Shown: one piece after another, positions 23,615 to 58,640 of the stretch
How the letters are laid out: each line of letters starts with the position of its first letter
Numbering within the stretch: position 1 is the first letter of the stretch
Assembly (NCBI GenBank): GCA_033032865.1
Contig: JAWHQI010000064.1
Coordinates: forward strand, 744,001 to 808,000
DNA: 64,000 nucleotides
From: Dactylorhiza incarnata
Taxonomy: Eukaryota > Streptophyta > Magnoliopsida > Asparagales > Orchidaceae
Direction: 5' to 3'
The notes under the pieces: generated by a model
Databases searched by the model: none
Told to the model about the DNA's origin: nothing
What the model saw: only the letters and a program-made list of their open reading frames with translations
Translations under genes and position numbers: made by a program

Positions 23615-23632
23615 TGGCGTCGTTGCCGGGGA
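23615..23632 (+). promoter_or_regulatory. tRNA-Asp primer binding site
   Basis: TGGCGTCGTTGCCGGGGA differs at one base from the 18-base complement of plant tRNA-Asp(GUC) 3' end (see 36137-36154). It sits six bases after the LTR end. Asp priming supports the Athila/Tat assignment. Confidence 0.9.
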
Positions 23633-25076: not shown

Positions 25077-26820
25077 AACTGTTTTAAATTTGAATAAGTC
25101 GTGCTGGGAAGACAATAACCCCAGTAGTTATCTTACCTTTTCTTGCATTTTTTTTGTCTAGTCAGTTTAGTTAGTTGCATTTCTTTTTTGTTTGTCTATT
25201 TTCTTTTGTTTTTGCAGAGCTCACCCCTGCAGGTTCATTTTCTGGATGGGGATGCTGCAGCTTTGTCTTGGTTTACACACGTCTTCTGGTATGCTCACTT
25301 GTTGAGCATTAGGTAACTTCTCTTCCCCTAGCTTTTATTTTAGTCTTTATTATATATCTTGTATTGGAATGTTTAGATTAAGTCTGGGGTAGAGCTGTTG
25401 TATTTGTTACCCACTACACACACTCAATGTCAATGCATGCTAGAAGTTTTTGTATTTCATTTATCTAGTTTTATTCATTTTTCTTTGCACACCACATCAC
25501 CCACTTGAGCGCGTACTCATCTGTATGCGTGCTCTGAGTTGAATTTAATTCTTCTGCTTATTTGGGAAAGTCTAGGTGCTGGCTTAGGACTATGTAGCGG
25601 AGTAAAATGTTGACTCCAGTAGTGCTCCTAGTCGAGTGCTCGGTTGCATAGAAATTTGTGTAGATTAGACTTCTTTTTATACTTATGGTTTTATATTTTT
25701 TCTATTAGTGTAAATGTTGTTTACTCTACTCAAATGGTGAATCCGGTGTGAATCAAACGGTAGCATAGGGATGTGTGTAAACGATCGCTAGACTCGTATG
25801 GCTTGAGTTGGGAGAAAGGAGAATCTTTCTCGGTGGCTAGAACTTGCCCCAAGCAATTCTTGAAGCATTGGCATAGGATAGTTCTAGTGTGTGAGAATGA
25901 CGTAGGCCATTATTTTGGCCCGGTTGAACTTTTTATTTCATGCCTATCGTCTACCTTTGCTAGCCCCTTTGTGCCTACCCTTTCATTGATTCAGCTCCGC
26001 ATATATCTCACCAAAGCCTAAAAGCCTAACCTAGCCGCACACCCAAATCTGAGCTTTAGTTATAGTTTTATTTACATTTTAGGGGGTGTTGATTGTGTTG
26101 TTTATTATGTGAATTTGTGGATATGCTCATTTGAAAAATTTGCTGAAAGAAAAAGACAAGAAAAATAAAGATAGAAAAAAAATGATTAAAAAAGAGAAAA
26201 AGAAAAATGAGTTTTATTGAAAATCATTTAGAAAAATTATGTATTGGGAGTAGGCGGTGCACACACCTATGTTGCAAAAGTCCAAGTCTGGGAGTGTGGT
26301 GCACTTGTTTATTTATAGTCGTGCGGGTAGCTCTACCTTAAGCTCATGATGGGTTAGGTGTGCTTTGCCTCCATGTTTATTTTTGGTTACCTCACCGTAA
26401 CCCAAGCCCCATCTCTAACCTAAAGTCCTACTGACTCACGCCTTGAACCAATCTATTGTCGTGGAGAGAATGTGACCGGGCGAGCTTATGGTCACCGACA
26501 TCGATGGATTTCGGTGGAGTTTGTCCTGCACCCCAATCTTGAGCAATGATCATCTCAGCGCTTAGTTTACTTTCTCCGTATGCGTGACCGGATGATTCAC
26601 CGTAGTTCACCATTTTGAGTAGTTGTAATATGCTTTTACTCTTTTAGAAATCTATAAACTGTTTGTATAATGAGAAATTTTCTCTATTATTTTTCTTATG
26701 CACGTGAGCATGCGACTTCGCACGGTACTCTGTATTGTAATTTTAAGTCATCTACTTTTCTTTCCCCGTTTGCTTAGAATTTGTTTGCTCGGGACGCGCA
26801 AACAGGTAAGTCTGGGGGTG
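25077..26820 (+). mobile_element. Non-coding 3' internal region and polypurine tract of the short element
   Basis: This is a long stretch without a gene. Blocks such as GGAGAATCTTTCTCGGTGGC and GTGACCGGGCGAGC recur inverted in 30412-32020 and direct in 34766-35563, so it is a conserved non-coding 3' region of this family. An A-rich patch lies at 26140-26215. It ends in the polypurine tract AAGTCTGGGGGTG (26808-26820) beside the LTR. Confidence 0.8.
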
Positions 26821-28482
26821 TAATGAGTCTCATTTATATACACTTTTATGGACTCATCTGGGCTAGTTTTCCTGCTTTTGCACTTCATTTTCAGTTCTTA
26901 ATTGCTTATATTTTACACGTTCGCGCTTTCACTATTAGTGCAATGTCTTGGCCCATTGTGGTGCGCAATTGCGCGCTTTGTTGTTGGAGGCAAGCACAAT
27001 GTGCTCCCCATTCTTTTTATGCGTTTATGCTTGAGCTGGAGGGGTATTCCCAGCTGTGTTGTGGCTGATGCAGGTGGACGGTTCATCCATTTTTTATCCA
27101 GAATTCATGTATGTGTATATCGCACGGTCGTGCATTTTCCTTGACGCACGGTCGTATGTGATCGTGCGTTCTCTTCTGTGGTGGAAAACGATGTTCTGTC
27201 GTTGATCATGCGTCTCTACGCACGGGCAGTTGCCCGTGCGTGAAGGAATCGCACGATCGACCTGTTTAGCCTTATTTTTGGCCATCTGGATTTGTCCGTG
27301 CGTTTTTTACGTATAGTCGGCTTCGACCGTGCGTGAATAAAACGCACGGGCGCGCCTGCTTCTTCTTCCTGGGCTCCTGTACTTTTAATATCGCACGGTC
27401 CACGCACGGTCGTGCGTTTGACCGTGCGGGACCAATTTCTGACCAGTTTTCTATAAAAGCTGCAGATCTCGACCTAATCCGGAGTTCGCCCGATCCATCT
27501 TCTTTCCCGGCCCTAAGGGTTCCAGCTCCTTTCCAGTCTGTCGTTCCATCACCGCCCACCATTTGGAGGTGCTCCAGACACATTCTCGGCTCAAATCTTG
27601 AGCCGGAGCATCCTCTTGGCCGCCTCCATCATCCAAGTGCTTCAAGGAGAGGATTCCACCCTCATCTTCATCGCATCGGACGTGGCCGGATTGTAGTTTA
27701 CCGGAGAAGACGGGTCCATTGGGAGGAAGTGACAGCCCTCCTCTACCCCGGACGATAGTTGGGACCGAGCTAGGACGCGGATTGACAACCCGGCGATTCC
27801 TACCGAGAATCTACAACAAGCCTCTGAATTCGGTCGTATCTCTTGTCTTTTTCTCTACTTGTATGGATGTATATGAATGTAATCTTTACTATTTGATGAT
27901 GTATGTCATTCTAGACTCTTGATTTATAGTGTTATTTTCATAGTTGTGAAAATGCTTATTTGTGTAGAATGTGTTTGAGGTGCGCCACCAAATCTGCCAT
28001 AACCCTCCACTCCATTCTGCTAGCCTACTCTTCCAATACGTGAGCCTACTCTTCCAATCCGCGTGCCTACTCTTCCATTCTCCTCACGAAGCAGTGCGCT
28101 CAAGGCCTGCACAGTTCGATTCCGCACTTATTCACCTCATCCACTTGCCTGCCAGCCATTCTCCTTGCGAAGCGGTGCGCTCAAGGCCTGCCTAGTTTCC
28201 ATCTCGCCAAACGAAGCATTTCATAGCGGCATTGCATAGGAGTAGTTGTAGTTATTTTATTTTATTTACAAAACCAAAATCTTTTTCGTCCGCATTCCAT
28301 CTGCCACAAGGACTTCGATCTCAAGTCCTCCTTGATTTGTAAACTCCACCTTACTGTGTTCCTTCGAGATTCGATACTCGGGGATTCACTCCTCGTTTTA
28401 TATTACTTGAATGATCGGTACACTGGCGTTTCATGCCGCAGTCTCGCTACCGCCTATAGCGGTGTGCTAGATTTGTGCATCA
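26821..28482 (+). mobile_element. Athila-like LTR 'B' (3' LTR of the short element)
   Basis: The LTR is 1662 bp, starts TAATGAG (the family form is TGATGAG) right after the polypurine tract and ends GTGCATCA. It is very close to the reverse complement of 36161-37837 but of a different subfamily from LTR A, although both flank the same internal region. 27120-27430 is packed with CGCACG words. Instead of a target duplication it is followed by primer-site-like AGTTTTTAGCCTTGT and then an inverted LTR end. Confidence 0.87.
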
Positions 28483-28914
28483 AGTTTTTAGCCTTGTTGA
28501 TGCGCAAATCTAGAGTAAAGGCAAGAGATACGACCAAATCCGGAGGCTTGTTGTAGATTCTTGGTAGGAATCGTCGGGTTGTCAATCCGCGTCCTAGCTC
28601 GGTCCCAACTATCTTCCGGGATAGAGGAGGGTTGTCACTTCCTCCCAATGGACCCGTCTTCTCCGGTAAACTACAATCTGGTCACGTCTGATGCGAAGAA
28701 CTCTTTGCTTGGCGATGAAGATGAGGGTGGAATCCTCTCCTTGAAGAGCTTGGATGATGGAGGCGGACGAGAGGATGCTCCGGCTTTGGATTTGCAAGGA
28801 AATGGTGGCCGGAGCGCCTCCTTAAGGTGGGCGGCGATGGAGCGGCGAAAAAGGGGCGGAACTGAAGCTCTGGGAGCGGGAAAGACGATTGATGCGGCAA
28901 CGGCACTAAAAACT
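28483..28914 (-). mobile_element. Inverted LTR fragment 'C' between two degenerate primer sites
   Basis: 28498-28513 is the reversed LTR end (TGATGCGCAAATCTAG). The sequence then jumps to the LTR middle and runs to about 28894; this part is the A subfamily (reverse of ~22680-23060). Degenerate tRNA-Asp primer sites lie at both edges (28483-28497 on plus; 28895-28910 GGCAACGGCACTAAAAAC on minus). It is a rearranged piece, not a whole element. Confidence 0.75.
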
Positions 28915-30411
28915 TGATGCGATTACGGCAAGTGCACCGGTCGTTCAAGTAGTAAAATTGGGAAAGACTCCCCGAATATCGTTCTCAGAGGACTGCAAAT
29001 TGGGTTGTATGAATTCTTGTTAGGGAATTACTTATATAGATTCTTATGTAATTAATAAAAAGAGGGGTTTTGATTTTGGTTTTCCTAGATTAGCAACAGT
29101 GAAAGATAATGCGGGCCTAGAGCTCCGCTTCGCTTGTCGGGATGGAATGCGGGCCGCGATGCCGTGCTTCGGTGAGTGGGTGGACGAGAAGACTAGCGGA
29201 TGGATGTTTTGTAACCAGCGGAATGAGGGTCGTAGGCACCTCGTTGCGGAACACGCAACTAGCAATTGCTAGTGCGGCGCACTACAGAGCGGTGGAGTGG
29301 ATGGCGGACTAGGGCGCTCCTCAAATCTCATAAACCACAACACATTTCACCGAAATGAAATCACAATAACTTAAACACAGTTATGAACATCATCCGTAGG
29401 AAAGTACATCATACCATGAAGAAATCCTAAACTATACACAAAAGGGAAAGAGGTCACCGAAGCTCGAAGACTATGCTGAAGATTCGCGGCCGGAATCGCA
29501 GGGTTGTCAAGCCTCGTCCGTGCTTGGTCTTCAGTTGCGTCCGGGGTACAGAGGAGCTATCACCTTCCTCTACTTTACCCGTCTTCTTCGTGGTCTAGCT
29601 CCAGCTACTCTTATTGGAGATCCCTTGAATGTAACAGAAATCTTTCGTCGATGGCATTCTTGAACTCGTAGATGATGGAGGAGGCCAAGGAGGGAGCTTT
29701 GGCAGAAGATTTGCAGGACAAAGGTTGCCGGAGCTCCTCCTAGGTCAGGCGGTGATGGAGAGGCGAAATGGGCGGAAATACTAAAAACGGCAGAAATTTA
29801 GTCACGCACGGTCGAACGCACGACCGTGCTTTTCCCGTGCGTTATTTAACGAAAAGAAATGCCTTGAGGAAGAAGCAGCAGCGCCCGTACGTTTTACTCA
29901 CGCACGGTCGAAGCCGCCCGTGCGTAAAAACGCATGACCAAATCCAGATTGGCTAAAAACCAGGCGATCATGCGTTTCCTTCGCGCACGGGCAACTGCCC
30001 GTGCGTAAAAACGCACGAACAAAGTCAGATCACCATTTTGCCACCCAAAAGAAGGCGCACGAACGCAGCCGTCCGTGCGTCAAGAAAAACGCACGACCGT
30101 GCGATATAAACAATCATGATTTCTGGGCAAAATGGGATGATCCAACCACCTGCAAAAATAGCAATCCAGCTGGGAATACACTTCCAGCACCAATCAATCA
30201 TAAAAAAGGATTGGGGAGCACCATGTGCTTACCCCCAACAGCATGGAGCGCAAACGCACACCAAAATAGGCCTAAATAGAGCACAAAGCACGTAAGTGCG
30301 CGCAAGTGTGTATAAGAGAAATATAAGCAATAATAGCTCGAAACGGATGTGCACAAGAGTGAAAACTAGCCCGGATGAGTCCATAAAAGCGTATATAAAT
30401 GGGACTCATCA
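28915..30411 (-). mobile_element. Athila-like LTR 'D' (3' LTR of the gag element)
   Basis: It begins TGATGCG and ends GACTCATCA on plus, so TGATGAGTC...CGCATCA on minus. The adjoining CACCCCCAGA at 30412 on is the polypurine tract on minus, marking a 3' LTR. It is only distantly similar to A, B and F outside the CGCACG-rich zone (29805-30100), which is well kept. Confidence 0.82.
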
Positions 30412-32556
30412 CACCCCCAGAATTAACCCCGAGAAAATCATCCCTTATGCGGACGGAAAAATTGATTAGCTGGCTTAACAATTGTAGAAGCGGAGTACCA
30501 TGCGAAGTCGCATGCTCGCGCGCGTAGAAATGCAGTAGAAGAAGTTTTTAATTATACAAGCACTTTGTAATAATCTAAGAACGTACATATATATTATCTC
30601 TACTCAAAAGTTGAATCACGGTGAATCGTCCGGTCTCGCGTAGGAAGAAAGTAAACTGATTGCTGAGGCTAGTATTACTCAAGATCGGTGCTCGGAACAA
30701 CCTCCAATGAAATCCATCAATGTCGGTGGCCATAAGCTCACCCGGTCACACTCTCTCCACGATACTAGTTCGATTCACTGCGTGAGTCAATAGGACTTTA
30801 GGATAAACACAGGACTTGGTATTCGGTAGGGTTTATAATGATAAACATGAAGGTTTCCGCACTTAACCCAAAAGAGCTTGCGCTAAAGAAAACATCCAAG
30901 CACCACAAAAAATAAAAACACGGGTGCACCACACCCCCAGACTTAAACCTGAAAATATGGGTGTGTGCACCGCCTACTCTCAAAACAATTCTTAAAAAGA
31001 TTTTCAATTTGGCTCTTTTCATAACCAAGCATTTTTCTTTCTTTCCTTTTCTTGTTCTAATTTCTTTTTTTCTTCTTTTTTTCTCATAACCTTCTTTTTT
31101 TTCAGCAAATAATCCGAGGAAGCGCACACCACAGTTTCACAAACTTTTTCACTGCATCAACACCCTCAATTAAAATTGATACAACACTCAAGCTCGGATT
31201 GGGAGCGCGACTAGGATTATCTTGCAGGCCTTGGTGAAATAAAAGTTGAGCTGAATCAAGAGACGGGGTAGGCACAAAGGGGCTAGCAAGGATAATGATA
31301 GGGTCGGTATACAAAGCTCAACCTGGCCAAAGCGAAGGCCTACATCATGCTCACACATTAAACTAACTTATACCAATGCTTCGAGAGTCGCTTGGGGCAA
31401 GTTCTTAGCCACCGAGAAAGATAATTCTTCCTCCCGACTCGAGCAATACAAACCTAACAACCGTCTACACACATTCCTACGCTACCGTCGGATTCACACC
31501 GGATTCACCACTTTTGAGTAGAATAAACAATTATTACGCAAATAGAAAAATTACAAAACTAATAGCATAATGAAAAATTTATTCTACACACAAATCTATG
31601 CAAGACGCGAGTACTCGACTAGAGCACTACGAGAGTCAACATTTTACTCCGTCTTACAACCCTGAGCAAGCACAACAATTTTCCCAATCCTACAAAAGAA
31701 ATGAGCTGGACTCGTTACGCGCCTATGATTAAGTGCGCTCTCTAGTGGGTGTTGTGGTGTGCTATGAGAATGAAAAATAACAATAATATTGTAACTTCTA
31801 GTATGTTGTGCTTATGTGCACGTGCAAGTGAGTAACGACAAGCTACTCTCCCCCAGACTTAAATCTAATCATCACATATTATAATGCTAGATTCATAAAA
31901 AGAATTGGGAGGAGAGGTTACCCCATGCTCAGAAATGAGCATACCGAAAGATTGGCGTTAATCTTGAATTCAGCTTCAATGTGTCCGTCATCGATGTCGT
32001 CATACCTGCAAAACGACATCTCAACACGCAGAAACAAAAGCAAAAACAGCAAAATTGGGTCGTCTCCCATAAGCCCTTTTGTTTACCATCCTTAAGGTGG
32101 ACCAAATACCTGTATTAACATTGTAGCAATAGAGTTCAAGCATAATTCTTAGCAATTGTCCAGAATACCATAGAAATAAAACACACAAACAAAGACAAAG
32201 AGATAAAATTAAGCATAAAAGAAGCCGCCGAAACATAAACCCCTGAGACTTCATCACGACTCAGCTCTAGGCTGATTTGTGATGATTCTCCCCAGCCACA
32301 CGAGATGGGAAGGAGGTGAAGGCTTTAGGGCTCAAGGGAGATTTCTCTACCCTGCCCCTAACCTCTTCCTTCTCGTGCCGGAGGGCTGGAAAGCGCGCTG
32401 CATGTAATAATCCGACCTGCTTTAATCTCTCTACAGTGGAAGAGGGCCATCGAGCAATTGGAGCTCAATCAAATTCATTGTTCTGCAGCTTTGGAGCAGC
32501 CAAGGGCGTCATTTCCCCACCCCCTATGGGTGATAGATCTGCCCAACTAACCTGTT
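30412..32556 (-). mobile_element. Non-coding 3' region of the Athila-like gag element (left inverted arm)
   Basis: No gene is seen in 2.1 kb. On minus it matches 25230-26820 in order, and 31840-32015 plus flanking blocks recur as the reverse complement at 34766-35563. A CT-rich stretch lies at 31015-31095. No RT, RNase H or integrase lies between gag-protease and the 3' LTR, so this element is non-autonomous. 32020-32556 is unique and unassigned. Confidence 0.75.
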
Positions 32557-34644
32557 TTAAATGTTACATTTATCTTTAGTTTTCATAGAGTTAATTAAAA
32601 TGTTTTTAGCCATGCCGGCTATGGTGACTTCAGGCTTCGCGGCCTCGCCTCTCTTGTTCAAAGTTTCTTCTTCACTCCTCAGCTCCTTCTTCACTATCTT
32701 CTGTTCCTCCTCCTTTTCCTCAACATTCACTTCTTCACCTTGCTTTTCCACATCTAAACTCAACTCATTAGCAGATTTATTAGTAATAACAGGTAATAAT
32801 ATGATGTCATTGGTTGTCATAGATGGGTGAGTGTGGTGTGTCACCATGGGTGACAAGGTTACACACCCACTAGGGATGTGAATGTTGGCATCACTCTCCT
32901 TCAAGAATGGGGCACCCAGAATAGGAATGGAGTTATTTTCCATGGGGCCCAAGACTTGGAAGTTCGTGATAACCGAAGTTTCATCTATGATTACCTCGAC
33001 GTCTCTAACTTCTCCTTCCGTCTCCACCACCATTCAATTAGCTAGGGTAAGTGACTTTCGATCATCGTTATTGATTTTTAAATTCAGATTTTCAACGTCT
33101 TGCAATGCAAGCACGTTGCGCGATGATCCGGTGTCGTACAGAGCGGTGGTTTCAATGCTGTTAATTTGACATTTCACAATTAACTCGCCCTCATGCCCTT
33201 CATCCGTCTCGGTTATGCTCTTTCCTTGCTCATGGGGATTCTTCTCCGTTGTGCTAGGAAGAGCACCTTGAGTACGCTCGGAAAGCACTTGAGTCAATTG
33301 GCCCACTTGCATTTCCAAGTTTCTCATTGAGGCCGATTGGTTGGCCACATTTGTTTGGGCTATATCTACAAACTTTTCCATCATCTCTTCTAATGTACTC
33401 TTCCTTTGCATCGCAGCACCTTGGTTATAACCCGGATGAGGCGGCCTCAGTTGGCTTCCGGACACTTGAGCATCATATTGATGCTGGCCCGGTTGCCATC
33501 GTTGGCCTGCAGTGTTTTGAGTCCAAGAAAAATTGGGGTGATTTCTCACACCCGGATTATACGTGTTAGAGAAGGGTGCAGTGCGGTTTTGATTTTGGAC
33601 AAAATTAACACTCTCTTCTAAATTGAGATTAGAGAGTTCAGAAGAGATTTCACCTGAGGGACATTCATATGCATGATGTCTGGGGTTCCCACACCCGAGA
33701 CAAGAAATGGCCATCACTGGAGCGGATGAAGAAGCAGGCTTCTTCAGCAATGTGATGCTCTCAGCTGGTGCTCCAGATGTGCATACTTCAAATAGTCCTC
33801 TCGCGTTCCTTGGGTTGTTTCGTCCTGCAGTCCAGAATGAGCTGTGAGACGCGGTGTCTTGTAGAATCCGCAGTGCTTCTTCAGGAGTGTGATTCAGAAG
33901 GGTTCCACCGACAGCAGCATCAATCATAGCCCTATAGTTGGGCTCGATTGCGAAATAGAAGTTCTCCACCAAATTCCATGGTTGAAGTTCATGATGGGGG
34001 CATTTCCGCAGAAGGTCCATGAATCTTTCCCAAGCTTCTGCCAGGGTCTCCTGATCATTCTGCCGGATGATTGCGATTTCCCTTCTCATGCTCACAATTT
34101 TATCAACCGGGTGGAACTTGGAGAGAAATTTTCCTTGCAGCGCATCCCAGGTGGTAGCTATGCCCGGCGGAATTGTATGGAGCCACGCCTTTGCCCTGTC
34201 ACGAAGGGAGAACGGGAATAATCTTAATTTCACCGTGTCGTCCGCAATACCGGCGTACCGGAACGTTCCACAGATCTCTGAGAATTCTGCCAAGTGAAGA
34301 TGGGGGTCTTCACCTGCCATCCCAGAGAACTGGGCATTGTTGCGGATAATGTTCAGGATCGCCGACTTGATCTCGAATTGATTGTTCGTGATGGCTGGGC
34401 CAAAGCCGGGATATACACTCCCCACAGTGGGAGTGGTATAATCCCGCATCGTTCTAGGCCTCGCCCGGGCCACCTCGTTCTCATCAGCCGCATGACCCAC
34501 AGCGGGCGCATTCTCACCCCCAGGGTTAATCTCATTCATGTTGATGTTGAGATCCATGGTCGCAGCAGCACGGCGACGCGCATGCAGCGTCCTCTCAATC
34601 TCAGGGTCGTATTCCACGAACTCTTCAGGGTCTTGCCCCTGCAT
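32557..34644 (-). pseudogene. Athila-like gag and aspartic protease, one in-frame stop
   Basis: From Met 34644 the frame gives 536 residues. They include the gag core (LHLAEFSEICGTFRYAGI, KLRLFPFSLRDRAKAWLHTI, FLSKFHPVD, LAEAWERFMDLLRKCPHHEL, MIDAAVGGTLLNHTPEEA), a C-rich knuckle-like CLGCGNPRHHAYEC, and the protease start GELIVKCQINS with catalytic DTGSS. A TGA at 33034-33036 replaces one codon, and the same frame continues for 158 residues (VVIDETSV-like region, NSIPILGAPFLKESDANI). The stop is in the protease where the family usually has Gly. No RT follows. Apart from that stop, the frame is fully open over 2.1 kb. It is a dead or very recently inactivated copy. Confidence 0.9.
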
Positions 34645-34743
34645 AAACTAACTTACACACAACAAAGAAAAACAGAAAAAATCAAAAACAACAAAGAATT
34701 TTTATAGTAGCTTCCTGGAAAAAAATTCATAAAACGCTAGCAG

Positions 34744-34761
34744 TCCCCGGCAACGGCGCCA
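34744..34761 (-). promoter_or_regulatory. Perfect tRNA-Asp primer binding site
   Basis: On minus it reads TGGCGCCGTTGCCGGGGA, an exact 18-base complement to the tRNA-Asp 3' end with CCA. Unlike the other sites it is not followed by an LTR end: after AAAACTT the sequence switches to an inverted copy of the element's own 3' non-coding region. Confidence 0.93.
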
Positions 34762-34765
34762 AAAA

Positions 34766-35563
34766 CTTATTAGAAGATGTCGTTTTGCAGGTATGGCGAC
34801 ATCGATGGCGGACACATTGAAGCTGAATTCAAGATTAACGTCAATCTTCCGGTATGCTCGTTTCTGAGCATGGGGTAACCTCTCCTCCCAATTCTTTTTA
34901 TGAATCTAGCATTATTATCTGTGATGATTAGATTTAAGTCTGGGGGAGAGTAGCTTGTCGTTACTCACTTGCTCGTGCACATAAGCACAGCATACTAGAA
35001 GTTACAATATTATTGTTATTTTTCATTCTCATAGCACACCACAACACCCACTAGAGAGCACACTTAATCATAGGCGTGTGTGGAGATTTGGTTTGGATTA
35101 TAGGTGTATCAAGCCTTCATGTTTATATTTGTTTACCTCACCATAACCCAAGCCCCATTTAAAACCTAAAGTCCTACCGACTCACGCTTTGAACCAATCT
35201 AATGTCGTGGAGAGAATGTGACCGGGCGAGCATATGGTCTCCGACGCCGATGGATTTCGGTGGAGTTTGTCCGGAACCCCAACTTGGGCAATGCTCGTCT
35301 CAGTGTTTATTTTACTTTCTCCGTATGTGTGACCGGATGATTCATCATGACTCCCATTTTGAGTAGAAGTAATAGGTATTTACTCTATTAGAAATTTATA
35401 AAATATGTGTATAATTAGAAATCTTCTCTATTATTTTTCTATGCACATGAGCATACGACTTCGCATGGTACTACATTTTGTAATTTTTAAGCTAGCTATT
35501 CCATTTTACCACCTGCTTAGGATTTGTTTGCTCGGGACGCGCAAACAGGTAAGTCTGGGGGTG
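34766..35563 (+). mobile_element. Inverted (+) copy of the Athila-like 3' non-coding region (right arm)
   Basis: This plus-strand arm reads GATGTCGTTTTGCAGGTATG... and is the reverse complement of 31840-32015. It then jumps near 35085 (about 900 bp missing relative to the left arm) and ends in the polypurine tract TAAGTCTGGGGGTGG (35549-35563). No LTR start follows the tract; the next bases resemble an LTR end (CCCGCTTATAAGCGGTG). Confidence 0.82.
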
Positions 35564-36079
35564 GTACCCGCTTATAAGCGGTGTAGGAATTTCACATAGA
35601 CATGAAATAAACACTACAAAACAAAGTTTACATGTGCCACATCATCAAATAATAAGAATTACATTCATATATATCAACACAAATAAGAGAAAAAGGCAGG
35701 AGATACGACCGAATCCGGAGGCTTGTTGTAGATTCACGGTAGGAATCGTCAGGTTGTCAATCCGCGTCCTAGCTCGGTCCCAACTATCGTCCGGGGTAGA
35801 GGAGGGTTGTCACTTCCTCCCAATGGACCCGTCTTCTCCGGTAAACTACAATCCGGCCACATCCGATGCAAAGAACACTTTGCTTGGCGATGAAGATGAG
35901 GGTGGAATCCTCTCCTTGAAGCACTTGTGAGATTGGATGATCGTGCCGCACGAAACGGTGTGCTAGATTGGCGTCGTTGTCGGGGAGATTTGCGCATCGG
36001 TACACTGTCATTTCGTGTCGCAGTCTCGCTACCGCCTATAGCGGTGTGCTAGATTTGCGCAGTCTCGCTACCGCCTATA
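35564..36079. mobile_element. Scrambled Athila-like LTR fragments
   Basis: 35564-35590 is a plus-orientation LTR-end piece and 35591-35927 a minus-orientation LTR middle (B subfamily). 35940-36079 is made of plus-orientation LTR ends with a primer-site-like TTGGCGTCGTTGTCGGGGA at 35963-35981 and a direct repeat of GTCTCGCTACCGCCTATAG (about 36030-36049 and 36061-36079). At least four junctions occur in 500 bp. Confidence 0.7.
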
Positions 36080-36151
36080 GTCGTTGTAGTATAGTGGTGA
36101 GTATTCCCGCCTGTCACGCGGGTGACCCGGGTTCGATCCCCGGCAACGGCG
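36080..36151 (+). tRNA. tRNA-Asp (GTC), full length, embedded in LTR ends
   Basis: The sequence is 72 bases with a complete cloverleaf. The acceptor stem GTCGTTG pairs with CAACGGC, with discriminator G. The anticodon stem CCCGC/GCGGG encloses the loop CTGTCAC with anticodon GTC. The T arm is CCGGG-TTCGATC-CCCGG. A and B boxes for Pol III are intact. Plant nuclear tRNA genes do not encode CCA, yet CCA follows here at 36152-36154, then the usual AAAACT spacer and the LTR start at 36161. The 5' flank is an inverted LTR end that stops exactly at tRNA base 1. I read it as a reverse-transcribed copy of the primer tRNA, not an ordinary gene; whether it is transcribed is unknown. Confidence 0.88.
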
Positions 36152-36160
36152 CCAAAAACT

Positions 36161-37837
36161 TGATGCGCAAATCTAGCACACCGCTATAGGCGGTAGCGAG
36201 ACTGCGACACGAAACGGCAGTGTACCGATCGTTCAAATAATATAAAACGATGAGTGAATCCCCGAGTATCGAATCTCGAAGGAACACAGTAAGGTGGAAT
36301 TTACAAATCAAGGAGGACTTGAGATCGAAGTCCTTGTGGCAGATGGAATGCGGACAAAAAGGATTTTGGTTTTGTAAATAAAATAAAATAACTACAACTA
36401 CTCCTATGCAATGCCGCTATGCAATGCTTCGCTTGGCGAGATGAAAACTAGGCAGGCCTTGAGCGCACTGCTTCGCAAGGAGAATGGCTGATAGGCAAGC
36501 GGATGAGGTGAATAAGTGCGGAATCGAACTATGCAGGCCTTGAGCGCACTGCTTCGTGAGGAGAATGGAAGAGTAGGCGCGCGGAATGGAAGAGTAGGCT
36601 CACGTAGTGGAAGAGTAGGCTAGCGGAATGGAGTGGAGGGTTATGGCGGATTTGGTGGCGCACCTCAAACACATTCTACACAAATACGCATTTTCACAAC
36701 TATGAAAATAACACTATAAATCAAGAGTCTAGAATGGCATACATCATCAAATAGTAAAGATTACATTCATATACATCCATACAAGTAGAGAAAAAGGAAG
36801 AGATACGACCGAATCCAGAGGCTTGTTGTAGATTCTCGGTAGGAATCGTCGGGTTGTCAATTCGCGTCCTAGCTCGGTCCCAACTATCGTCCGGGGTAGA
36901 GGAGGGCTGTCACTTCCTCCCAATGGACCCATCTTCTCCGGTAAACTACAATCCGGCCACGTCAGATGCGAAGAACTCTTTGCTTGGCGATGAAGATGAG
37001 GGTGGAATCCTCTCCTTGAAGCACTTGGATGATGGAGGCGGCCAAGAGGATGCTCCGGCTCAAGATTTGAGCCGAGAATGTGTCCGGAGCACCTCCAAAT
37101 GGTGGGCGGTGATGGAACGACGGACTGGAATGGAGCTGGAACCCTTAGGCGCGGGAAAGAAGATGGATCGGGCGAACTCCGGATTAGGTCGAGATCTGCA
37201 GCTTTTATAGAAAACTGGTCAGAAATTGGTCGCGCGCGGTCAAACGCACGATCGTGCGTGGACCGTGCGATATTAAAAGTACAGGAGCCCAGGAAGAAGA
37301 AGCAGGCGCGCCCGTGCGTTTTACTCACGCACGGTCGAAGCCAACCGTGCGTAAAAACGCACGGACAAATCCAGATGGCCAAAAACAAGGCTAAATAGGT
37401 CGATCGTGCGATTCCTTCACGCACGGGCAACTGCCCGTGCGTAGAGACGCACGATCAACGACAGAACATCGTTTTCCACCACAGAAGAGAACGCACGATC
37501 GCATACGACCGTGCGTCAAGGAAAACGCACGACCGTGTGATATACGCAGACATGAATTTTGTATAAAAATGGATGAATCGTCCACCTGCATCAGCCACAA
37601 CACAGCTGGGAATACCCCTCCAGCTCAAGCGTAAACGCATAAAAAGAATGGGGAGCACATTGTGCTTGCCCCCACAATAAAGCGCGTAATTGCGCACCAC
37701 AATGGGCCAATACATTGCACTAATAGTGAAAGCGCGAACGAGTAAAATATAAGCAATTAAGAACTGAAAATGAAGTGCAAAAGCAGGAAAACTAGCCCAG
37801 ATGAGTCCATAAAAGTGTATATAAATGGGACTCATCA
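36161..37837 (-). mobile_element. Athila-like LTR 'F' (position of a 5' LTR)
   Basis: The LTR is 1677 bp, TGATGCGC... to ...GACTCATCA on plus, in reverse orientation and closely matching LTR B. The tRNA-Asp primer region lies directly at its low end, so it occupies the place of the 5' LTR of a minus-strand element. No polypurine tract lies at the high end, where it abuts the copia integrase. The CGCACG word cluster is at 37230-37545. Confidence 0.88.
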
Positions 37838-54723: not shown

Positions 54724-56159
54724 CAGTTTTTTTCTTTTTCTTCATTCTTGTAGCCGAGTTGTCGCCACTTGAGCAAGTACTTGTTTGAACAATATTATTG
54801 ATGTAATATTATTATTTGGCGAGTATTGGAATCTTGCCCTTTATTTCTTTGTTGTGATGTCTTGATTTTCTTCTCTCTTTTTTATTCTTGCGAGTAGTAG
54901 TTGGGTGTCGCGCCCATGTTGGCGAGTTACTTTATGTTCCTGTTTGCAGGTCTTCATGTGTTGGATGTTGAAACCAATACTTGGTCTCTTGTGGAGTTCG
55001 GGGTCCCCAAAAGAGGGGGTGACCTCACACTTACTTCTCTCAAGGGAGAGCGCTAGGCCGAAGACTTAGGAAACTAGGAACAAGACCAAGGGCTCAACGA
55101 GGATGTCCCACCACACACCCAGAAGATCTTAGAGCGCTTCCCCTCCCAAGCCATGCTGAGCTTGGGGCACCTTTGGAGGCTCTCTCCACCCACTAAAGAG
55201 ACTTGGGGAGAGAGATGACAAAAGAGAGAAGTCTCGATAGAACCTCTCCAAATGGTGCCTCTTGGTCCTATTTATAGTTTTTGGAAACGGGTCTGCAAAT
55301 AACCAAATTCTGGCCCACGAGATTACGAAAATACCCTCGGAATTGGCCAGCGAACAGCCAAATCCCGCTGTTCGGAGGCGCTAAACGCAGTCCAGCACAC
55401 ACTCCCGGGCCGGGCGAGAGGGGGTTGACCTCCTCCCCTGCTCTCCCCCCTCACTGGGCTGGGGCGGGGCGAGCTGGGAGGGTGTCTCCCTCCTGAGCTC
55501 GCCCCCTGCTGGGGGCAGGGGCGAGAGGAGCTCGCCCCCGCCCCCCTGTTGGGGATCAGGGGCGAGAGGAGCTCCCCCCCCCCCCCCCCCCCCTTTGCTG
55601 GGGAGCAGGGGCGAGAGGAGCTCGCCCCCTGCTAGAGGCGGGGGCGAGAGGAGCTCTCCCCCCCCCCCTTTGCTGGGGAGCAGGGGCGAGAGGAGCTCGC
55701 CCCCTGCTGGGGGAGGGGCGAGAGGAGCTCTCCCCCCCTGCTGGGGAGCAGAGGCGAGAGGAGCTCGCCCCCTGCTGGAGGCGGGGGCGAGAGGAGCTCG
55801 CCCTCCGCCTGGGATCTCGCCCCCATTGCTGGGGGGCGGGGGCGAGAGGAGCTCGCCCCCTACTGGGGCGGACGCGAGCCCAGGAGGCCGCATGCCTCCG
55901 GCTCGCCCCTCTTACGGGCTGGGCGAGTGGGAGGCCACCGCCTCCACCATTTGCCCCCTTCTTCTTGCCTGGTGTCAGCGCCAAAAAACTGCTGGGCCTA
56001 AAGACTTAGGCCCTGGGGACCCACTCGGAGAATACGAGGTTGTACACAATCCCCGCTCTTTTCGAGCGAGGTACAAGCTCGGAAAGAAAAGTCCAACCAC
56101 ACATATTCGGCGAGTGGTGCTCAACACCCGTCTAGCGGAGCCATCTTGGGGGAAAACAC
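54724..56159 (+). repeat. Second promoter-like block with GC-rich minisatellite
   Basis: 54724-54940 is the likely 3' UTR of the three-exon gene. 54955-55330 resembles 52349-52700. 55440-55870 is a GC-rich tandem array built on GGGGCGAGAGGAGCTCGCCC with CCTGCTGGGG spacers, about nine degenerate units, each with a GAGCTC palindrome, interrupted by C20 (55574-55593) and C11 (55658-55668). 56035-56110 resembles 52930-53010. Open frames across the array are a by-product of the repeat. Confidence 0.7.
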
Positions 56160-58640
56160 TTAGCCTCCCTGGGAGGTCAACCTGCCCTGCCGGCTAGAGA
56201 GAGCCCGGTCAGCGGAACCATCCGAGGGGAAAAACACTTAGCCTCCCTAGGAGGTCAACCTGCCCTGCCGGCTAGAGAGAGCCCGGTCAGCGGAACCATC
56301 CGAGGGGAAAAATCACTTACCCTCCCTGGGAGGTCAACCTGCCCTGCCGGCTAGAGAGAGCCCGGTTAGCGTAACCGTCCGAGGGGAAAAGAACTTGGCC
56401 TCCCTGGGAGGTCAACTTGCCCTGCCGGCTAGAGAGAGACCGATCAGCGGAACCGTCCGAGGGGAAAAGGACGTACACTCCCTGGGAGGTCAACCTGCCC
56501 TGCCGGCTAGAGAGAGCCCGGTCAGCGGAACCGTCCGAGGGGAAAAGAACTTGGCCTCCCTGGGAGGTCAACCTGCCCTGGCGGCTAGAGAGAGCCCGGT
56601 CATGGGAACTGTCCGAGGGGAAAAGAACTTGGCCTCCCTGGGAGGTCAGCCTGCCCTGCCGGCTAGAGAGAGCTCGGTCAGTGGAACCGTCCGAGGGGAA
56701 AAGGACTTACCCTCCCTGGGAGGTCAACCTGCCATGTCGGCTAGAGAGAGCCAGGTCAGCGGAACCGTCAGAGGGGAAAAGAACTTACCCTCCATAGGAG
56801 GTCAACCTGCCCTGCCGGCTAGAGAGAGCCCGGTCAGCGGAACCGTCCGAGGGGAAAAGAACTTGGCCTCCCTGGGAGGTCAACCTTCCCTGCCGGCTAG
56901 AGAGAGCCCGGTCAGCGGAACCGTGTGAGGGGAAAAGAACTTGGCCTCCCTGGGAGGTCAACCTGCCCTGCCAGCTAGAGAGAGCCCGGTCAGCGGAACC
57001 GTCCAAGGGGAAAAGGACTTACCCTCTCTGGGAGGTCAACCTGCCCTACCGGCTGGAGAGAGCCCGGTCAGCAGAACCGTCCGAGGGGAAAAGAACTTGA
57101 CCTCCCTGGGAGGTCAACCTGCCCTGCCGGCTAGAGAGAGACCGATCAGCGGAACCGTCCGAGGAGAAAAGAACTTGGCCTCCCTAGGAGGTCAACCTGC
57201 CCTGCCGGCTAGAGAGAGCCCGGTCAGCGGAACCGTCTGAGGGGAAAAGAACTTGGCCTCCCTGGGAGGTCTACCTGCCCTGCTGGCTAGAGAGAGCCCG
57301 GTCAGCGAAACCGTCTGAGGGGAAAAGAGCTTACCCTCCCTGGGAGGTCTACCTGCCCTGCCGGCTAGAGAGAGCCCGGTCAGTGGAACCGTCCGAGGGG
57401 AAAAGAACTTACCCTCCCTGGGAGGTCAACCTGCCCTGCCAGCTAGAGAGAGCCCGGTCAGCGAAACCGTCCAAGGGGAAAAGAGCTTACCCTCCCTGGG
57501 AGGTCAACCAGCCCTGCCGGCTAAAGAGAGTCCGGTCAGCAGAACCGTCCGACGGGAAAAGAGCTTACCCTCCCTGGGAGGTCAACCTACCCTGCCGGCT
57601 AGAGAGATCCTGGTCAGCGGAACCGTCCGAGGGGAAAAGAGCTTACCCTCCCTGGGAGGTCAACCTGCCCTGTCGGCTAGAGAGAGCCCGGTCAGCGGAA
57701 CCGTCCGAGTGGAAAAGAACTTACCCTCCCTGAGAGGCCAACCTGCCCTGCCGGCTAGAGAGAGCCCGGTCAGCGGAACCGTCTGAGGGGAAAAGAGCTT
57801 ACCCTCCGTGGGAGGTCAACCTGCCCTGCCGGCTAGAGAGAGCCCGGTCAGCGGAACCGTCCGAGGGGAAAAGAACTTACCATCCCTGGGAGGTCAACCT
57901 GCCCTGCCGGCTACAGAGAGCCCGGTCAGCGGAACCGTCCGAGGGGAAATGGACTTACCCTCCCTGGGAGGTCAACCTGCCCTGCCGGCTACAGAGAGCC
58001 CGGTCAGCGGAACCGTCCGAGGGGAAAAGAACTTGGCCTCCCTGGGAGGTCAACCTGCCCTGCCGGCTAGAGAGAGCCCGGTCAGTGGAACCATCCGAGG
58101 GGAAAAGAACTTGGCCTCCCTGGGAGGTCAACCTACCCTACCGGCTAGAGAGAGCTCGATCAGCGGAACCGTCCGAGTGGAAAAGGACTTACCTTCCCTG
58201 GGAGGTCAACCTGCCCTGCCTGCTAGAGAGAGCCTGGTCAGCGGAACCGTCCGAGGGGGAAAAGAACTTACCCTCCCTGGGAGGTCAACCTGCCTTGCCG
58301 GCTAGAGAGAGCCCGGTCAGCGGAACCATCCGAGGGGAAAAGAACATGACCTCCCTGGGAGTTTAACCTGCCCTGCCGGCTAGAGAGAGCCCGGTCAGCG
58401 GAACCGTCCGAGGGGATAAGAACTTACCCTTCCTGGGAGGTCAACCTGCCCTGCCGGCTAGAGAGAGCCCGGGCAGCGGAACCGTCCGAGGGGAAAAGAG
58501 CTTACCCTCCCTGGGAGGTCAACCTGCCCTGCCGACTAGAGAGAGCCCGGTCAGCGGAACCGTCCGAGGGGAAAAGAACTTACCCTCCCTGGGAGGTCAA
58601 CCTGCCCTGCCGGCTAGAGAGAGCCCGGTCAGCGGGTCTG
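56160..58640 (+). repeat. 78-bp tandem array, about 32 copies
   Basis: The unit is anchored by CCTCCCTGGGAGGTCAACCT, GGCTAGAGAGAGCCCGGTCA and GGAACCGTCCGAGGGGAAAA. Successive copies start 78 bp apart (79 in rare cases). Copies differ at a few positions, mainly AGAACTTGGC versus GGACTTACC at the joint. Because 78 is divisible by three, long frames stay open on both strands (repeating RESPVSGTVRGEKNLASLGG on plus). There is no start codon, splice signal or unique flanking coding DNA, so I treat it as a minisatellite. It ends in the flank of the SIRE-like LTR at 58653. Confidence 0.92.

Follow-up and report, generated by a model that had tools for sequence, protein, structure and literature searches.

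In long terminal repeat (LTR) retroelements, copying of the primer transfer RNA (tRNA) normally stops 18 bases into the tRNA, at 1-methyladenosine 58 (m1A58). The subject here is a locus of the orchid Dactylorhiza incarnata at which a complete tRNA-Asp with CCA is joined to an LTR, in a stretch of 64,000 nucleotides (nt) of contig JAWHQI010000064.1 (positions 744,001 to 808,000, called the window throughout), together with its relatives in the same genome. Failure of the m1A58 stop is otherwise found described from work on human immunodeficiency virus type 1 (HIV-1) and from single retroviral clones. Reverse transcription in HIV-1 runs through the whole primer in vitro when the tRNA is unmodified, it proceeds beyond A58 in TRMT6 mutant cells, and lentiviral genomes can match the over-extended primer (PMC13191261). 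A close counterpart of the window copy is the HIV-1 product P1, in which the primer tRNA is copied past A58, and to its 5' end if unmodified (PMC13191261); P1 is described as unusable for transfer, however, whereas the plant copies lie in integrated, inherited elements and involve both tRNA-Asp and initiator tRNA-Met primers. Similarly, a circular DNA of Moloney murine leukaemia virus carries a near-whole reverse-transcribed tRNA beside an LTR (Colicelli and Goff 1986, via PMC12220202), although that tRNA is a tRNA-Gly, a spurious primer in a single unintegrated clone, and is 4 bases short at its 5' end. A tRNA-Gly beside an HIV provirus is likewise joined with its CCA to the U5 end, in association with a deletion, but it is non-cognate, comes from one infected cell line and lacks five 5' bases, and its authors also offer a self-priming model (PMC12220202). 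Template switching also places tRNA (63 nt of tRNA-Asp) in retroviral DNA in the hairpin-induced, tRNA-mediated recombination of HIV-1, where the setting is an experimental hairpin in nef and not a primer at the LTR (via PMC12220202). Finally, the Helenus terminal-repeat retrotransposons in miniature (TRIMs) are short LTR elements with tRNA-like sequence (PMC10886601), but theirs lies within both LTRs, whereas in the window the tRNA stands outside the LTR, at the primer site and with CCA. A literature search covering mainly titles and abstracts, with few subscription papers, found no report of a germline, genome-wide series of full primer tRNAs in LTR elements, of genomic copies misread at m1A58, or of whole primer tRNAs in elements that have target duplications.

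The window copy is a 72-nt tRNA-Asp(GTC) with CCA at 36080-36154 (+), complementary to the plus strand of the element. ARAGORN reports tRNA-Asp gtc over the same positions, CCA included, and draws every stem as paired (G-T pairs included), while Rfam RF00005 matches 36080-36151 at 60.3 bits against a cut-off of 29, with model positions 1-71 covered in full. The CCA (36152-36154) directly follows the tRNA bases (36080-36151) on their 3' side and is itself followed by the spacer between LTR and primer site (36155-36160, AGTTTT on the minus strand and AAAACT on the plus), and then by an LTR end that reads TGATGCGC from 36161 on the plus strand. This is the end of LTR_R, a complete LTR of 1677 base pairs (bp) at 36161-37837 (-), recognised by a scan for LTR starts and ends (TGATGAG...GCATCA). 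Read along the minus strand, LTR_R (37837 to 36161) leads into AGTTTT and then into the whole 75-base complement of tRNA and CCA, of which the ordinary primer-site part is the 18 nt at 36137-36154 (-; tRNA 76 to 59, 0 mismatches). Position 58 of the tRNA is 36136 (+), an A in this copy and altered at 21 of 75 comparable sites in the genome. The succession of tRNA, CCA, AAAACT and LTR start given in the original prediction is thus borne out by the sequence, by ARAGORN and by Rfam.

As expected of a read-through product, the window copy combines an end at tRNA base 1 with CCA and an LTR spacer; given that the CCA is templated, these features together argue for copying of the mature primer tRNA. 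A tRNA-Asp primer site directly after LTR and spacer is present in the window element, and tRNA-Asp is among the primers of non-chromovirus plant elements (PMC6317226). LTR_R is not followed by a gag frame, the Retrotrans_gag domain (PF03732) being located in a neighbouring minus-strand element. From its LTR, spacer and primer-site type, the window element is presumably a member of the Athila clade, and the locus very probably preserves the trace of a plus-strand strong-stop synthesis that failed in such an Athila-like LTR retrotransposon. Most likely, reverse transcriptase copied the mature primer tRNA during this synthesis, and the overlong end was then saved by a switch of template. The plus strand would have been copied through U3-R-U5 and the spacer into the attached primer tRNA-Asp, the annealed primer thus serving as template, and a rare failure of the m1A58 stop would have allowed synthesis to continue to tRNA base 1, or to an earlier stop, often in the D arm. 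Unable to pair with the minus-strand primer site past 18 bases, the overlong 3' end would then have switched templates and been extended on the new one. In the window this would have been an antisense LTR end, followed by further short microhomology jumps; at other loci it would have been internal sequence, a different LTR or, once more, the primer site. Some of the molecules rescued in this way would subsequently have integrated, the template jumps presumably having come first.

The flank that adjoins tRNA base 1 in the window is extensively rearranged. Inverted piece 1 of the LTR end (36058-36080, +) consists of 23 nt identical to 36184-36206 inverted and has one base in common with tRNA base 1; piece 2 (35996-36061, +; 66 nt, 97% complementary to 36164-36229) overlaps it by 4 bases, and piece 3 (35986-35998, +; 13 nt) overlaps piece 2 by 3 bases. 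There follow a second tRNA-derived piece of ordinary length (35969-35986, +), which is an 18-nt primer site with 2 mismatches that ends at tRNA T59, and inverted piece 4 (35956-35969, +; 14 nt). Farther out lie a fragment from the LTR interior with the same sense as LTR_R (35602-35931, -; 35602-35927 about 90% identical to 36702-37027, the last bases assigned by eye), a short LTR-end piece of LTR_A type (35567-35591, +; by eye) and the 3' end of the internal region of a related element, reaching to its polypurine tract (35113-35563, +; 86% to 26367-26820). An inverted LTR end at tRNA base 1 had been noted, and it is confirmed by pieces 1 and 2; the accompanying idea, that the runaway strand paired with an LTR end lying the wrong way round, agrees with the window and with several other loci. 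The two LTR-to-LTR joints, with overlaps of 4 and 3 bases, exceed random breakpoint pairs in the same LTR end (p ~0.0015).

Conceivably, though this is the less probable course, the tRNA copy came from reverse transcription and the inverted LTR pieces of the window from foldback repair or end joining in the nucleus at a later time. Break repair, too, typically leaves short overlaps and inverted pieces, templated inverted insertions are reported at yeast breaks (PMC11724301), and LTR_B and LTR_C, two further LTRs of the window, are joined in similar manner. The second tRNA piece, however, ends at T59, the ordinary strong-stop end, and 5-bp duplications at four other read-through insertions place the rearranged molecule there probably before integration, although neither observation settles the case of the window. 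At 22 loci examined at length (19 without the duplicates L016, L024 and L037; L028 is not among them), what comes after the tRNA copy is antisense LTR, internal sequence beyond a deletion, another LTR or DNA that does not resemble the references. Shorter reads of L063, L070, L076 and L084 show part or all of the primer site again after the tRNA copy, and then possible leader sequence.

Both outer LTR ends were in hand at five loci, and four of them have 5-bp target-site duplications. L029 (TAGGC) consists of an LTR, a full tRNA with 4 changes, a short internal piece, a polypurine tract and an LTR, with the LTRs 94.7% alike; L021 (ATGAG) has a full tRNA and a deleted second LTR; L032 (CAAGG) and L036 (CCATG) have 47 and 36 nt of tRNA between LTRs that are 98.9% and 96.9% alike, respectively. 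The fifth, L027, has no duplication, and its second LTR continues into another spacer and primer site; inspection by eye showed none at L019 either, which is a solo LTR carrying the full tRNA. The four loci thus combine a read-through tRNA copy with the signature of ordinary insertion, so that at least some read-through molecules probably integrated normally after rearrangement.

Genome scans covered the whole of the assembly (3.27 gigabases, one plant genome). A DNA search with 36000-36235 returned many further cases of an LTR end adjoining a long stretch of tRNA-Asp (40 of 2,018 candidates scored), and the exact 31-base pattern of T-arm, CCA and spacer, with A58, occurs at 54 sites against 0 in the reversed control, so that chance is excluded. 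The exact 18-base primer site with spacer is present in 21,198 copies, of which 75 extend past A58 into the tRNA, 54 with A58 and 21 with another base. These figures suggest a leak of the order of 0.35% (75/21,198), which covers inherited, undecayed copies only. The search for other LTR ends joined to more than 18 bases of tRNA-Asp and CCA, recommended in the original prediction, has thus yielded dozens; of the rarity that it also supposed, the part that holds is rarity per element, whereas the event itself is recurrent and involves many LTR-end types. Reading of 53 of the 54 A58 sites (of a local triplet in C1273, two copies were read) and merging of copies with the same flank gave 49 distinct junctions. 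In linear numbering of the 72-base tRNA, in which chance matches may move an end by about 1 base, 19 of these end at base 1, 7 at bases 2-7, 11 at 9-18 (around the D arm), 7 at 20-29 and 5 at 36-51, the excess at base 1 having p ~4e-20 against uniform ends over 51 places. LTR ends vary in type among the 49 junctions as well as among the 21 altered-A58 copies.

Such variety bears directly on the improbable alternative that the full tRNA was gained once, by one ancestral element, and that the present copies are its descendants, differently truncated. Some sites are clearly duplicates (L021/L024, L015/L016, L031/L037, L053/L054, L090/L091 and the copies in C1273), and L020, L022 and L068 join one internal stretch, at different bases. 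Yet the LTR ends are of many types and, when the flanks of 30 non-duplicate full copies were compared with one another, only L070 and L084 were alike at 9 or more of 12 bases.

Position 58 is m1A in mature primer tRNAs (PMC13191261). The T-arm, CCA and spacer pattern with a base other than A at this position is present at 21 sites (T 15, G 5, C 1; 0 in the control), all of them long copies of 51-75 nt and not chance flanks; two pairs with G share flanks, which leaves T 15, G 3 and C 1 as distinct copies. When up to one mismatch is allowed anywhere in the 31-base pattern, the number of sites rises to 109; 55 of these contain a mismatch, and in 21 of the 55 it is at A58 (p ~1e-17 for one of 31 places). 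The 46 one-mismatch sites listed comprise 18 at A58, 26 at C/G places and 2 at other A/T places, these last (of 11 such places, among the matches listed) being C555:8370609 and C222:2459451, both in the spacer. In RNA sequencing, m1A followed by U yields mainly incorporation of deoxyadenosine triphosphate (T in the tRNA sense), with low G and C (PMC4787781); given that tRNA-Asp has U at 59, the spectrum of T 15, G 5 and C 1 is the one predicted for 5'-m1A-U-3', and A58 would presumably have been methylated in the misread molecules. A second sample, of LTR-linked copies chosen by their exact 5' half alone (33 of 34, omitting L110, in which the tRNA is internally duplicated), contains 38 substitutions in positions 33-72, of which 6 are A58>T. 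In the window itself A58 is unchanged, and consequently passage over the methylated base is indicated by the relatives only. Of the earlier proposal that the whole mature primer tRNA had been copied through the modified base, the copying of a mature tRNA stands, and passage over the methyl mark belongs to other loci.

Nuclear tRNA-Asp genes provide a further comparison. All 41 exact tRNA-Asp 5' halves of the genome were classified, and 22 proved to be LTR-linked copies already known (the window included), 12 to be further LTR-linked copies with CCA and 7 to be nuclear genes. The absence of CCA presumed for plant nuclear tRNA genes holds in 7/7 of these; all seven also have A58, and TTTT follows 1-5 nt downstream, versus about 212 nt in the window copy, which encodes CCA and has no near terminator for RNA polymerase III (Pol III). 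In light of this distance, the suggestion that the copy could seed a new Pol III tRNA gene is not supported, and the D-loop base once regarded as a variant is no anomaly, being G in 41/41 exact 5' halves, the 7 genes among them. It is very improbable that a nuclear tRNA-Asp gene was copied beside the LTR by DNA repair or gene conversion with the 18-bp primer site as homology. That site does match the 3' part of the gene except for CCA, and filler DNA is inserted during plant repair, but copying of a gene predicts leader sequence or random ends, whereas ends cluster at base 1 and the flanks show no likeness to the 7 leaders: the 12 bases before base 1 in the 30 non-duplicate full LTR-linked copies have a mean best score of 5.03/12 against them, and random 12-mers from the window 5.00/12. 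Substitutions, moreover, concentrate at A58, a base that every one of the seven genes retains. Chimaeric inverted joins made in assembly or library would be an equally improbable source, for although inverted repeats are difficult to assemble, the sites number dozens over many contigs and their A58 changes are systematic, at the biologically predicted base.

Several observations weigh against read-through and template switching as set out here, or narrow what can be drawn from them. The assembly was taken on trust. The three window joints with tRNA pieces overlap by just 1 base each, and the other half of the target, a copia element, was not located in the window with 7 copia-type proteins as queries. 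Independence of the copies was judged from flanks alone, and re-copying inside mobile elements is possible; apart from the likeness of L070 to L084 and the internal stretch common to L020, L022 and L068, the loci L063 and L076 have, by eye, primer site and spacer sequence in common. In the 33-copy sample, which contains three duplicate pairs, G>A at linear position 64, a change of the cytosine-deamination type, also accounts for 6 changes and so equals A58. A58 is unchanged at 53 exact sites besides the window copy, and the tRNAs behind these copies may have been unmethylated or accurately bypassed. Among the target-site duplications, that of L032 lies in a repetitive target and is weaker evidence for this reason.

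Initiator tRNA-Met appears to be a second primer to which the same applies. The corresponding pattern across A58 and CCA has 154 sites (control 0), and a sample was formed of 40 of 100 listed sites (odd rows). Position 58 in these is G 14, C 13, A 11 and T 2, in a pattern that forces identity at the remaining positions; the frequent C disagrees with reports that m1A followed by A gives little C. In 12 of the 40 the copy extends to linear position 45 or beyond towards the 5' end (A 7, G 5), and one of the 40, L144, is a full initiator tRNA-Met with G at 58, as compared with what is taken to be the initiator tRNA-Met reference sequence. Among the remaining 28 are two families whose primer site is fixed at about 24 bases, one with flank acattcat (10 loci; position 58 G 6, C 3, A 1) and one with flank cgcactt (8 loci; C 6, A 2). 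Their primer type would make these elements copia. The fixed sites of about 24 bases resemble the lentiviral primer over-extension sequence (PMC13191261). One family with an initiator tRNA-Met primer site of this fixed length and a variable position 58 comprises L117, L122, L125, L128, L142, L147, L148, L150, L151 and L152.

The genome thus supplies dozens of natural outcomes of a failed stop, in the form of stops past A58, the base opposite A58 and the partners of the overlong end. These suggest a mechanism for deleted elements and inverted LTR joins, and suggest further that tRNA modification may be readable from DNA alone. It is moderately likely that the genome holds an inherited record of tRNA methylation in which position 58 is a footprint of germ-line m1A58, that the copia-type tRNA-Met families misread A58 anew in each cycle, and that read-through with template switching gives rise to TRIM-like deleted elements. 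If so, each read-through copy samples whether A58 was misread.

Some further products of the scans deserve mention. At C1657:7023802-7052507 and C1657:8309215-8352062, seven one-mismatch tRNA-Asp read-through sites with a common C>T form two clusters with a spacing of about 14.1-14.4 kilobases, perhaps segmental tandem duplications that carry a read-through copy. L056 and L057 (C555:8376149-8376297) are two head-to-head tRNA-Asp copies with no LTR between them, a near-palindrome in which the tRNA ends at positions 4 and 11. Viral contigs gave 0 matches each for the extended primer site, the tRNA-Asp 5' half and the ordinary primer site, and the pattern scan of general genome contigs gave 6 matches, in bacterial records. 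A tRNA-Gly pattern has 6 sites in the genome, CCA not being required in it, so that it is no control for CCA-bearing copies.

Two other primer sites of the window, at 23615 (+, 1 mismatch) and 34744-34761 (-, exact), stop after the usual 18 bases, and the spacer AGTTTT precedes those at 23615 and 34761 as well. The second of these, found by the primer-site scan and spanning 34744-34767 (-) with its spacer, served as comparison case and belongs to the gag-bearing neighbour, in which PF03732 lies in 33037-34647 and the top match is from Platanthera zijinensis (72%). At 34744-35563, the primer site and spacer of this gag element are preceded by its own 3' internal region, inverted, and not by an LTR, the inverted copy at 34775-35079 being 96% identical to 31717-32021. 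After LTR_B (26821-28482, +; 95% to LTR_R) come AGTTTT, what by eye is the remnant of a primer site, and an inverted LTR end; after LTR_C (28915-30411, -), which faces LTR_B, come AGTTTT and a remnant of 14 nt of a primer site, again identified by eye. The two are tail to tail over 26821-30411, separated by an inverted LTR fragment of 395 nt (28503-28897), and both U5 ends retain AGTTTT and a primer-site remnant. This arrangement looks like joined unprocessed complementary DNA ends. On the far side of LTR_R, the U3 start adjoins a copia-type integrase reading frame (protein top match Platanthera zijinensis, 60%), and the search with copia-type proteins found the right part of this target along with two further minus-strand copia pieces. 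Antisense within the gag frame, 33986-34092 has a marginal Rfam match to plant snoR71 (41.7 bits, cut-off 40), probably by chance. A second ARAGORN tRNA-Asp, at 55447-55529, was taken as false, as it has no Rfam match and overlaps GC-rich tandem repeats. A 78-bp unit is repeated in tandem over 56149-58635 (31.9 copies, 91% matches).

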